Assembly: GCA_029260215.1 (NCBI GenBank)
Contig: JAJDDQ010000004.1
Location: 1-64,000 of the forward strand
From: Phycisphaerae bacterium
Lineage (GTDB): Bacteria > Planctomycetota > Phycisphaerae > UBA1845
DNA: 64,000 bases
Direction: 5' to 3'
Position numbers and translations under genes: made by a program
Part shown: piece by piece, positions 53,674-57,650 of the stretch
Layout: the number at the start of each line of letters is the position of its first letter
How positions within the stretch are numbered: the stretch's first letter is position 1
The notes under the pieces: generated by a model
Databases searched by the model: none
What the model saw: only the letters and a program-made list of their open reading frames with translations
Told to the model about the DNA's origin: nothing

Positions 53674-55896
53674 CTAATCGCACACGGTCGAATGCGGGCA
53701 ACTGCTCAAGCTGTTCAATTCCGTCGCTCCCGTCCAATTGGCAAGGTATTGAGTGCGATCTACATCATCCACATCTCCATCGCAGTCCCAATCAGTCAGA
53801 GCATCGTAGGCAGCGTCCGGTGTCGTCTTGCGTTCACAAGTGCACCATGCGTCTTCGAATCGATCTCGATTGGAAGTCGTGTCGCCGTCATTGCCTGCTG
53901 TAGCTCCGTCAAAATCACCGAAGAGCCTGGCAACCAGCTTGATTGGCGTGTAGTCCGTATTGTCGAGGTTCAAAATTTCACCGCAATCCGATCCGGTGCA
54001 GTTAAGATCCACAGTCCCGGTGTAATAGATGTTGAACACAGTACCGGCTGCATGGATAAGCGGCGTGGCGACGTACAGTATCGCATCCTTCTCGACAAAG
54101 ATATCGATGGCGTAAACGGACTCCTGCGATTGCCAGGTTTTACCTTGGCCCACTTCCACTCCGTAATTCGGGTGCTGATCCGTAATTGTCGTGGAATCGG
54201 ACGCGCCGGCATCGAGAATACGAAGCTCACCCCATCGCTTGACGCAGGGCGAATCCGTAAAAAGCGGATCGTCGTCACTGAGTTCGTAGTCCGGGCCGAT
54301 CGCCTCCATGTGTCCGCCGATGTTGGCGCCGTTTTGAATCTTCAGTTGAACGCCCTCGACCTCGAAGGCCAAACTGGACCAGACACCGCTTCCGTTGATG
54401 CTGGTCAATGCTGTTTCAGCCGTGACGTAACCGCCGGTAGTGGATGGCGAATTGATCTGGATGGTCAATTCCGCCAACGAATCCACCTGCTTAATCGGGC
54501 CTTCGATCCATATTCCGTTCAACGCTCCGCTATGCTGATACGTGTTGTTCGTGCCGTCGTAGCTGATTTCCGATCCCGCCCCCTCATGCCAGCCTTCTCG
54601 GCTGATCGCGACCAGGGAGTCGCCCTTGAACTCCATGTCCCACTCGGGGTGGTCGTCTGAACTGTGCGACAAAGCCGAGTTGTAACCCAGGTAGCCCGTC
54701 CGCACCGTGCCACCGTCAAGCTCAAGCAGCGACGGATTAAAAGCCTGATCGGAATCGACATCCACACCCCAGCTGGACGTGCCCCCGTCACTGCGAACCC
54801 TCCAGATGCCGCCGCTGTCGGTGCCCGCACAATTCGTGCAGAAGTTACCAATATCCAGGCCGATGTCCAACAAAGCCACTACCCGCGAGTCGTCCGCGAG
54901 AATCCATTCGCCCCCGTGTATGTCGCCCTGACCCTCGAAATAACTGTCGTTGTACATATCCCAAAACGCCTGTTCCGTCCGCCCATGCACAATCATGCGT
55001 GAATCATCACGCATTTCGACAAGGCTGGCTATTGTGTCGTAACGGGCTACGTAGTGTCCTCCGCCAAAACCCGCGGCGTTGCTGACAATCAGCTCGGCGT
55101 CCTTTGTTAAGGACATTGTGCTGTGTGTCGCGGTCGGATCTCCCATCGATCCAACGGTGACCTGCGCTCCCCCGCTCGCGAGACCTCTAGCGCCTACGGA
55201 CAGGTTCGTGTCGTAGAAATCTCCGTGAACCTTGACCGTGCCGGAGTTTCCAATGTCCCAGCCGGTGTAGGGAGAGGCGTTTCCGGTCACGTCGCCGGCC
55301 ACATCGATGTTCGATCCATCCCGGACAGACAGTGTCGTCGTACCCATGTCGCCGTCCACGTCCATGGACACGTTGTCGCGTAGATCGAAATCCGAGTCAG
55401 CCACATCTCCAGTCGCGTTGATCCTGGCCCAATCGCCGTTGTTGTTGCGTGCTGCAACGATATCGATGCCGGTGATGTTCCCGCCGACCAGGACTTCCGT
55501 CTCGTTGCCGCTGGCCCCATCCTTCACGCGAATCAGATAATCCTGGGTTCCGGTGACCTTGGAGAGATTCCCATCGACGGTCAGCGTTTGCTGGGCGTCC
55601 AGCAGGATGAACCGATCGTTCGGGCTGTCGCCGTCACCGGTGAACGCATCGCAACGCTCGTCGCTGTCCACCTGAATCCGCGCCAACTCCGCGTCGTCCT
55701 GCAACCCCGTGTCGCCGTCGACAGGGAAGTCGTTGAGAAACCCTCCGAACCAATTGTCCTCTTGAGATGCATCGTTGTCCCATTGGCCGTCCGATGACCC
55801 CTTCCACGTATAATCCGTCGCGTATGCCACACCCATGAACCCGGCGAGCGTCGCCGAGAAAGCCAGTAGAATCGTGAAGATTCGGTTGGATTGCAT
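53674..55896 (-). CDS. Large secreted beta-repeat protein with dockerin-like tail
   Basis: The 740-residue product follows AAGGA and a signal peptide (IFTILLAFSATLAGFMGVAYA). The mature region starts DYTWKGSSDGQWDNDASQEDNW, a pattern typical of autotransporter-associated and pectate-lyase-like beta-helix repeats, and continues through many VDGN/VGGN/ATGDV short units to about residue 340 and beyond. Polar Asp/Asn-rich loops continue throughout. The last 80 residues have Asp-rich loops (FGDFDGATAGNDGD and DWDCDGDVDDVDRTQYL) in a dockerin-like pair. It is an extracellular adhesin-like or matrix protein; the binding target is unknown. Confidence 0.82.
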   Translation of the reverse strand: MQSNRIFTILLAFSATLAGFMGVAYATDYTWKGSSDGQWDNDASQEDNWFGGFLNDFPVDGDTGLQDDAELARIQVDSDERCDAFTGDGDSPNDRFILLDAQQTLTVDGNLSKVTGTQDYLIRVKDGASGNETEVLVGGNITGIDIVAARNNNGDWARINATGDVADSDFDLRDNVSMDVDGDMGTTTLSVRDGSNIDVAGDVTGNASPYTGWDIGNSGTVKVHGDFYDTNLSVGARGLASGGAQVTVGSMGDPTATHSTMSLTKDAELIVSNAAGFGGGHYVARYDTIASLVEMRDDSRMIVHGRTEQAFWDMYNDSYFEGQGDIHGGEWILADDSRVVALLDIGLDIGNFCTNCAGTDSGGIWRVRSDGGTSSWGVDVDSDQAFNPSLLELDGGTVRTGYLGYNSALSHSSDDHPEWDMEFKGDSLVAISREGWHEGAGSEISYDGTNNTYQHSGALNGIWIEGPIKQVDSLAELTIQINSPSTTGGYVTAETALTSINGSGVWSSLAFEVEGVQLKIQNGANIGGHMEAIGPDYELSDDDPLFTDSPCVKRWGELRILDAGASDSTTITDQHPNYGVEVGQGKTWQSQESVYAIDIFVEKDAILYVATPLIHAAGTVFNIYYTGTVDLNCTGSDCGEILNLDNTDYTPIKLVARLFGDFDGATAGNDGDTTSNRDRFEDAWCTCERKTTPDAAYDALTDWDCDGDVDDVDRTQYLANWTGATELNSLSSCPHSTVCD

Positions 55897-56124: not shown

Positions 56125-57384
56125 TTATTGAGACGGCGTGACAAGGGTTTGAAACGCCGCAAAGTCGCGGAAATCGATGTCGCCGTCGTCATCGAGGTCG
56201 AAAACATCAAGGCAAACCGGCGGTGTCTGCGTTCCGCACGCCTCGTTGCTCAGACAATTCAGCATGGATTCAAAGTCGAATCGATCGATACGGCCATCCC
56301 CTGTGAAGTCTCCGGGGGTCCGAGTTCGCCACATCAACCAAATGTCAAGTTCGGGGAAGTCGCCCATTTCGAGCACAACCTCGCCGATATCATTGATATT
56401 CCCGCCACCCATATTTTGTTCTTCGGAATTTGTCAGTTGATGCGTCGTCTCTCCGCGGACGACGAATGGCGACCAAAACACTCCATTCCATGATGCGTAG
56501 AGTATCTCAGCGACATTGCTCAACGCCGGTCCGCTCGCATCTTCAGTAGTGTTCGGAATCCAGGCGGTTATTCCATCTTGCCAAAGTTTGATCCCACCTT
56601 CGTCATGCCAGCCGACCAAGCCGTCGTTGGTGATTGCGCAACCCTGCGGTTGATTCGTGCCGTCGGTAATTTCATGTGTCACGCTACCGATCGAGCACAT
56701 AATCGTCGAACGCCACGACGGTTCGGCCTTGAAATCGTAGGCGATCCAGGCAAAATCCTCGTTCGCATTCATCCGTACGCAGGTGTTCGTAACACCGTTG
56801 TTCGTGATCTGCGTAACCACTCCATCGCGATATTGAACGAGTTGGGCGGTCTCACCATCGGGCCTGCGCGACCACATGATGACCTCGCTGTTGGTGATGT
56901 CGGCCCTGAAATCCTGGTCGTCGTTGTCGGTAAGCTGTTCGATCACGCCATCGCGATAACGAAATATCTCCGAGTCGTCACCATTGAAAGCGGGCAGCCT
57001 GTGCCAAACAATCGTCCCGTTATCGTTTATCCTGCCCCCTTGGTCCTGAAAATTGTCGAACGTAAGTCGTCGCAGTTTGCCGTTGTCGTAGAGGAAGATT
57101 TCTTCACGTGCGCTGTCCGGCATTCGCTTGGAAAACACGATCTGGCCAACATTGTTCATGGCTACGTGTTCGTCGAGTTCGGGGTCGTCGGTGATCTTCA
57201 CAAGCTCCCACCCCGGCGGGGGGCCTTGGATAATCGCACGCCCCGGCCCTTCGGCGCGCAGCCCGGCAGACGACAAAATCGCGATTAAAGTGAGAATGCA
57301 CGCTTGTGCAGCGCGCAGCAAGCCGCCAAACAGCGGCTGAACGCGGACGAATCGACAACGCTCTAAATCATTGAAACCAGCCAT
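56125..57384 (-). CDS. Secreted propeller-like protein with dockerin-like tail
   Basis: The 419-residue product has an export segment (about residues 24-44: LRAAQACILTLIAILSSAGLR). Repeats of about 50 residues of the type EIFLYDNGKLRRLT.....GG.INDNGTIVWHR, EIFRYRDGVIEQLT and LVQYRDGVVTQIT follow, a TolB/WD-like propeller. The C-terminus carries the dockerin-like pair (FTGDGRIDRFDFESML and FDLDDDGDIDFRDFAAF). The start codon is 38 bases after an 11.6-copy 7-bp tandem repeat, so expression or reading of the 5' region may vary. Confidence 0.85.
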   Translation of the reverse strand: MAGFNDLERCRFVRVQPLFGGLLRAAQACILTLIAILSSAGLRAEGPGRAIIQGPPPGWELVKITDDPELDEHVAMNNVGQIVFSKRMPDSAREEIFLYDNGKLRRLTFDNFQDQGGRINDNGTIVWHRLPAFNGDDSEIFRYRDGVIEQLTDNDDQDFRADITNSEVIMWSRRPDGETAQLVQYRDGVVTQITNNGVTNTCVRMNANEDFAWIAYDFKAEPSWRSTIMCSIGSVTHEITDGTNQPQGCAITNDGLVGWHDEGGIKLWQDGITAWIPNTTEDASGPALSNVAEILYASWNGVFWSPFVVRGETTHQLTNSEEQNMGGGNINDIGEVVLEMGDFPELDIWLMWRTRTPGDFTGDGRIDRFDFESMLNCLSNEACGTQTPPVCLDVFDLDDDGDIDFRDFAAFQTLVTPSQ

Positions 57385-57421
57385 AATCCAACCCCCGTTC
57401 CCGCTCGGCGCTTGCCAAGCA

Positions 57422-57502
57422 TGCTGAATGCTGAATGCTGAATGCTGAATGCTGAATGCTGAATGCTGAATGCTGAATGCTGAATGCTGAATGCTGAATG
57501 CT
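57422..57502. repeat. 7-bp tandem repeat (TGCTGAA), 11.6 copies
   Basis: TGCTGAA is repeated 11 times without error from 57422 to 57498, then TGCT. It lies 38 bases upstream of the start of the secreted propeller gene on the minus strand, in its leader or promoter. The unit is not a multiple of three, so copy-number change by slippage would alter spacing and any upstream frame. Confidence 0.95.
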
Positions 57503-57650
57503 CCCGGCCCTACCGATGGTCAGTATAGCCCGACGGGGCAGTCGTGTCAATCGTTTTGTTCGCCGCGTTCGGCACAATCGCTCAATTGAGCAGAACGAAG
57601 GGGATAGCGTTCAGGCGTGGCGGGTTGCGTGCGTCCGAAAAGGCATTGAA

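Follow-up and report, generated by a model that had tools for sequence, protein, structure and literature searches.

A perfect tandem array of a 7-bp unit lies between the predicted promoter and the start codon of a gene for a secreted-looking, dockerin-like protein in a Phycisphaerae bacterium, and we propose, with moderate confidence and from sequence evidence, that it is a variable-number repeat of the 5' leader, in which slippage or unequal exchange changes the number of copies and so tunes the gene in small steps. Comparable arrays precede several other members of the same gene family and were absent from the other leaders sampled in this genome. The arrangement suggests a built-in tuner of expression, similar to those of some adhesin genes of pathogens.

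The array, its promoter and its genes

Within the 64,000-nt stretch of DNA that was analysed (the window), Tandem Repeats Finder placed the array at 57421–57502 (period 7, 11.7 copies, 100% matches, 82 bp) with a score of 164, the second-ranked array scoring 54. An earlier sequence-only reading had described this repeat of TGCTGAA units, and its existence is confirmed; the repeat does not begin at 57384, as was stated there, since that position is the A of the ATG, and while the array does lie just before the ATG, the distance is 36 nt (57385–57420) and not 38, a trivial difference. Chance is excluded as the source of 82 bases of perfect 7-bp periodicity. A scan for perfect runs with periods of 5–12, covering 464 kb (the window together with 20 segments of 20 kb from the same genome), detected no other 7-bp array of three or more copies, and no 9-bp array of that copy number.

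The array and its gene are read on the reverse strand, where the order is TTGACA, 17 nt, TATACT, 19 nt, the array (AGCATTC in the coding direction), 36 nt and ATG. The predicted −35 (57545–57550) and −10 (57522–57527) hexamers together match 11 of 12 consensus positions, a level that four sites reach in 400 kb of the genome, counting both strands, with 16 sites reaching 10. Since the predicted promoter ends 19 nt (57503–57521) before the array, the array should lie within the 5' leader and would be transcribed if the prediction is right, with a start near 57515 on the assumption of 7 nt after the −10 hexamer. An equivalent arrangement precedes the arrays of two related genes of this genome, C33 and C64, and of one in genome G015. 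The 36 nt remaining before the start codon are G-rich and without a clear GGAGG, unlike the leaders of C33, C64 and a further relative, C31, which keep GGAGG between the array and the ATG. A family-like promoter (two mismatches to the pattern) was also seen, without a repeat, before an unrelated secreted-looking ORF (L315; G000:C47:25184-25213).

The sequence-only reading had suggested that changes in copy number would alter promoter spacing or leader structure. The first of these can be set aside: all of the predicted promoter is located upstream of the array, and its spacer consists of 17 unique nucleotides, so that copy-number change cannot alter the distance between the −35 and −10 elements. 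Phase variation by translational frame-shifting was also rejected, as the gene's frame has its first start codon only after the array, and so was leader-peptide attenuation of the pil1 type, since no terminator-like site was found ahead of the gene and, by eye, no ATG, GTG or TTG occurs from the expected transcription start to the array.

The gene behind the array (gene A, 56125–57384, reverse strand) is an open frame of 419 aa with an N-terminus that is hydrophobic by eye and a C-terminal, dockerin-type match of 22.8 bits, just below the Pfam cut-off of 22.9, in keeping with the earlier description of a slippage-type repeat preceding a gene of this kind. A single-sequence structure model of its product had a mean pLDDT of 38, and no relative of solved structure was found at E up to 0.01. 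Gene B (53674–55896, same strand), for a secreted-looking protein of 740 aa, is probably the second gene of the unit; NCBIfam provided no family for either protein, and Pfam none for that of gene B. Of 17 other family members that were examined, nine have a relative of gene B in their locus, so that the leader may control a unit of two genes for secreted proteins. A NAD kinase gene lies upstream of the array, on the same strand as gene A.

Recurrence of arrays in the gene family

Gene A belongs to a family of dockerin-like genes with 11 full-length members in its own genome, four of which (the window gene, C33, C64 and C82) carry perfect heptamer arrays in their leaders. Two of the four share one unit, one differs by a single base, and one is unrelated: besides the 11.7 copies of AGCATTC in the window, C33 has 11.3 copies of the same unit in another register (GCATTCA), C64, the first of two tandem genes, has 6.9 copies of CATTCAT, and C82 has 10.6 copies of CCGCAGC. 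C31 has two copies, one of them imperfect, and C73 has three imperfect copies of CTTTCGA. The leaders of C39, C38, both C23 genes and the second C64 gene lack a 7-bp array, C38 having an 8-bp repeat of three copies further upstream. Three copies of TGCTGAA are found at two places in the genome, both of them family leaders.

Such arrays were not seen ahead of the other genes sampled. Among 278 genes predicted by an ORF heuristic in a 400-kb sample of the same genome, all with a checkable upstream region, none had a perfect array of period 7 or 9 in the 250 bp ahead of it, and two had a 5- or 6-bp array. For periods 7 and 9, four of 11 family members against none of 278 other genes gives a Fisher p of 1.2e-6, and three of 10 against none of 278, leaving out the window gene that prompted the study, a p of about 3e-5, to be read with the proviso that arrays sharing a homologous leader are not independent. 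Tandem Repeats Finder (periods 4–12, score of at least 50) gave 11 arrays in 57.7 kb of family leaders and five in 400 kb of control sequence.

Family members were present in 19 of 100 genomes, the present one included (94 matches, E up to 1e-15), and 91 of the 94 leaders were scanned, several of them truncated where the contig stops. Five leaders (the four above and the one in G015) had perfect arrays of 2.9 or more copies with period 7, and four had such arrays with period 9, all with the unit CAGTTCACG and all from G029 and G040, two genomes of one genus, with 4.4, 6, 6.1 and 8 copies; the leaders with arrays of either period span three genera. A truncated family gene of G029 has a further leader with four copies of the 9-bp unit, leader L198 has a single copy at the corresponding spot, and in that genus all five places where the unit is found two or more times are family leaders. 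G040 also has a leader at a contig edge with four copies of AGTTC, and another (L192) in which a good promoter is followed by degenerate TTTCAGT heptamers. With no perfect 7- or 9-bp array in 82 of the 91 leaders, the family evidently does not require one. Many family genes lie less than 1 kb from contig ends (e.g., L164 and L165 of G000), and in G006 the contigs of L194 and L211 both stop 293 bp past the match, ending in one degenerate 7-bp repeat, so that downstream repeats probably break assemblies.

By leader homology, the arrays have at least three origins: one type shared by the window, C33, C64 and G015, a second in C82, and the 9-bp type. In local alignments restricted to the 60 nt that precede the array, the window leader scored 44 with C33, 38 with C64, 29 with C31 and 41 with G015, each above all of 300 shuffles, and its alignments with C73 and C82 were not above all shuffles. 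When the 105-nt promoter region was used as a BLAST query against the genome, the remaining leaders were not recovered (E up to 1), which indicates that similarity outside the array is modest.

It is possible, if somewhat on the unlikely side, that the array is a neutral product of slippage without effect on expression, the heptamers expanding readily in a leader that tolerates changes in length and may be destabilised by heavy transcription. Many bacterial genomes have more heptameric repeats than expected, with polymerase slippage a possible cause, according to the available part of one study (PMC4692102). TGCTGAA arrays are found in many phyla away from promoters. Four copies of TGCTGAA occur in at least 118 stretches, from Lentisphaerae, Verrucomicrobia, Pseudomonas, Shewanella, Moorena, Acidobacteria and others. 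Among the matches listed, promoters of 10 or more of 12 positions lay near one of 124 arrays on the window-like side, none of 124 on the other, and three of 1272 controls; at nine or better the counts were 11 of 124, six of 124 and 45 of 1272, a slight enrichment for the window-like side. The unit thus arises widely, and a special meaning of TGCTGAA was rejected, since it recurs across phyla without promoters; it is the position behind a strong predicted promoter that distinguishes the family of the window from other TGCTGAA arrays. What speaks against a neutral product is the concentration of arrays in a single family, and their separate origins, three or more, at one position.

Four copies of TGCTGAA were found in five of the 100 genomes, including the present one; in G015 the array lies in a family leader, and in G039, G046 and G053 short arrays lie within or adjoining unrelated ORFs. 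Two of these, L010 (G046) and L011 (G039), are inside long ORFs that by eye resemble carbamoyl-phosphate synthase and alanyl-tRNA synthetase, so that such repeats also enter conserved genes. Across phyla, arrays of 4 to 19 copies (L036–L153) often adjoin other heptamer arrays, for example of TTCATAA or GTCAACC, and one IMG/VR contig, 3300028840_003139 (39,965 bp), has four copies of TGCTGAA at eight places (L154, L155, L158 and L159 among them). A text search of the literature for the letters of the repeat found no paper.

Turnover, mosaic structure and possible action

The expectation of the sequence-only reading that such repeats change in copy number is supported by comparison of paralogs. 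Downstream of the array, C33 and C64 share 93% identity across 120 nt, and upstream of it 72% across 80 nt, and their arrays differ by about four units, with one base replaced in nearly all units. With six and four copies respectively, L218 and L301 show 91% identity on either side of the array. The related leaders C33, C64 and C31 form a series of 11.3, 6.9 and 2 copies, and the leaders with the 9-bp unit a series of 1, 4, 6 and 8. These differences between otherwise similar leaders, which are paralogs and not alleles, are, for the pairs C33/C64 and L218/L301, the trace that would be expected of slippage or unequal exchange, and we infer that copy number would also change within the species.

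Judged by its alignments, the window gene is a mosaic of a promoter and array of the C33/C64 kind and a coding region of the C73 kind. From the promoter to the array end its DNA matches C33 (88.6% over 140 nt, the match ending with the array), and from 126 nt inside the gene it matches C73 (81% over 560 nt), the protein of gene A being 26% identical to that of C33 and 69% to that of C73. The arrays might, then, mainly provide, or once have provided, short homology by which promoter–leader blocks are moved among distant members. However, this is a single clear mosaic, the DNA from the end of the array to nt 126 of gene A matches neither C33 nor C73, and homology outside the array is modest, as judged by the BLAST result above; we consider this explanation improbable.

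The reading of the array as a variable leader repeat is preferred. Slippage or unequal exchange would alter the number of copies, each step making the leader 7 nt longer or shorter with promoter and start codon unchanged, and leader length would shift the amount of mRNA or protein by small increments, in the manner of hmw1A, which has 7-bp repeats downstream of its promoter P2. This would be a habit of the family, several members bearing short tandem repeats at this place; since the units at the one leader position are unrelated, repetition and position seem to matter, and not the sequence of the unit.

Of the earlier suggestion that repeats might act on leader structure, a role of the leader is still an option, and an on/off structural switch found no support in folding computed on the predicted leaders with 0 to 20 copies. 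Predicted folding at the start codon of the window leader barely differs from 4 to 20 copies, and a folding switch was rejected because exposure of the start codon hardly varies from four copies on in either the window or the C33 leader. For L218, a leader with the 9-bp unit, exposure drops from 0.44–0.45 to 0.32–0.35 once there are two copies and is then flat, and in L238 it ranges from 0.32 to 0.44 with no trend. Predicted folding being flat from four copies on, a length-dependent effect on mRNA level or translation is favoured. Real leaders fold more weakly than leaders with letter-shuffled arrays; in comparison with arrays of permuted units, the fractions at least as weak were 0.33, 1.0, 0.28 and 0.07, and selection for weak structure was rejected because the arrays show no clear weakness relative to these. 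The lack of any sign of selection on the unit is also consistent with a neutral product of slippage.

That each unit binds an RNA- or DNA-binding protein, a role proposed for the TAACTGA heptamer of Beggiatoaceae in the available part of the source (PMC4679880), would suit identical serial units close to the expected transcript start, but a single genome has different units (AGCATTC, CATTCAT, CCGCAGC) and another genus has yet another (CAGTTCACG), and this makes it very improbable.

Known leader repeats and significance

Leader repeats of other bacteria are considered here as far as the available parts of the sources describe them. The 7-bp repeat (ATCTTTC) of Haemophilus influenzae hmw1A lies past a working promoter, in the 5' untranslated region, as the window array is predicted to, and is followed by a surface-protein gene that has a paralog; its copy number varies and sets expression, which is high at 14 copies and not detected at 20 to 24 (PMC8262952). 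There, the repeat extends over the −10 box of P2 (PMC8262952), whereas the window array begins 19 nt past the predicted −10 hexamer, and the gene A family has units and periods that differ among members, unlike hmw1A. The AGAT repeat of Moraxella catarrhalis uspA2 also occupies the 5' untranslated region ahead of a surface-protein gene, and its copy number varies with the strain and affects expression, but this is a 4-bp unit, and a single unit of a single gene (PMC4679880). TAACTGA heptamers of Beggiatoaceae, Cyanobacteria and Bacteroidetes are likewise intergenic and ahead of start codons, but form one unit throughout the genome, precede all kinds of genes and mostly replace the Shine-Dalgarno sequence (PMC4679880); a single genome-wide unit of this type was rejected here, as TGCTGAA is repeated three times at two places and other members use other units. 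The GCAGA repeat of Streptococcus gallolyticus pil1 is in the leader of an operon for a surface structure and works by means of a leader peptide and terminator (PMC3894217), neither of which was found at the window locus.

A wider picture, which we put forward tentatively and regard as rather doubtful, is that varied repeats have been gained repeatedly and independently as rheostats and that promoter–repeat blocks have been swapped, allowing lineages to vary their secreted dockerin proteins. In listings of open-licence papers on planctomycetes combined with phase variation or dockerin, no report of such leader repeats could be recognised. Most work on contingency loci concerns host-adapted pathogens. 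Leaders whose copy numbers run from 1 to 12 offer natural variants, ready for testing. If the proposed role is true, the arrays would represent a contingency system in environmental bacteria, for which random tuning of secreted proteins would also be of service, perhaps directed against phages or grazers.
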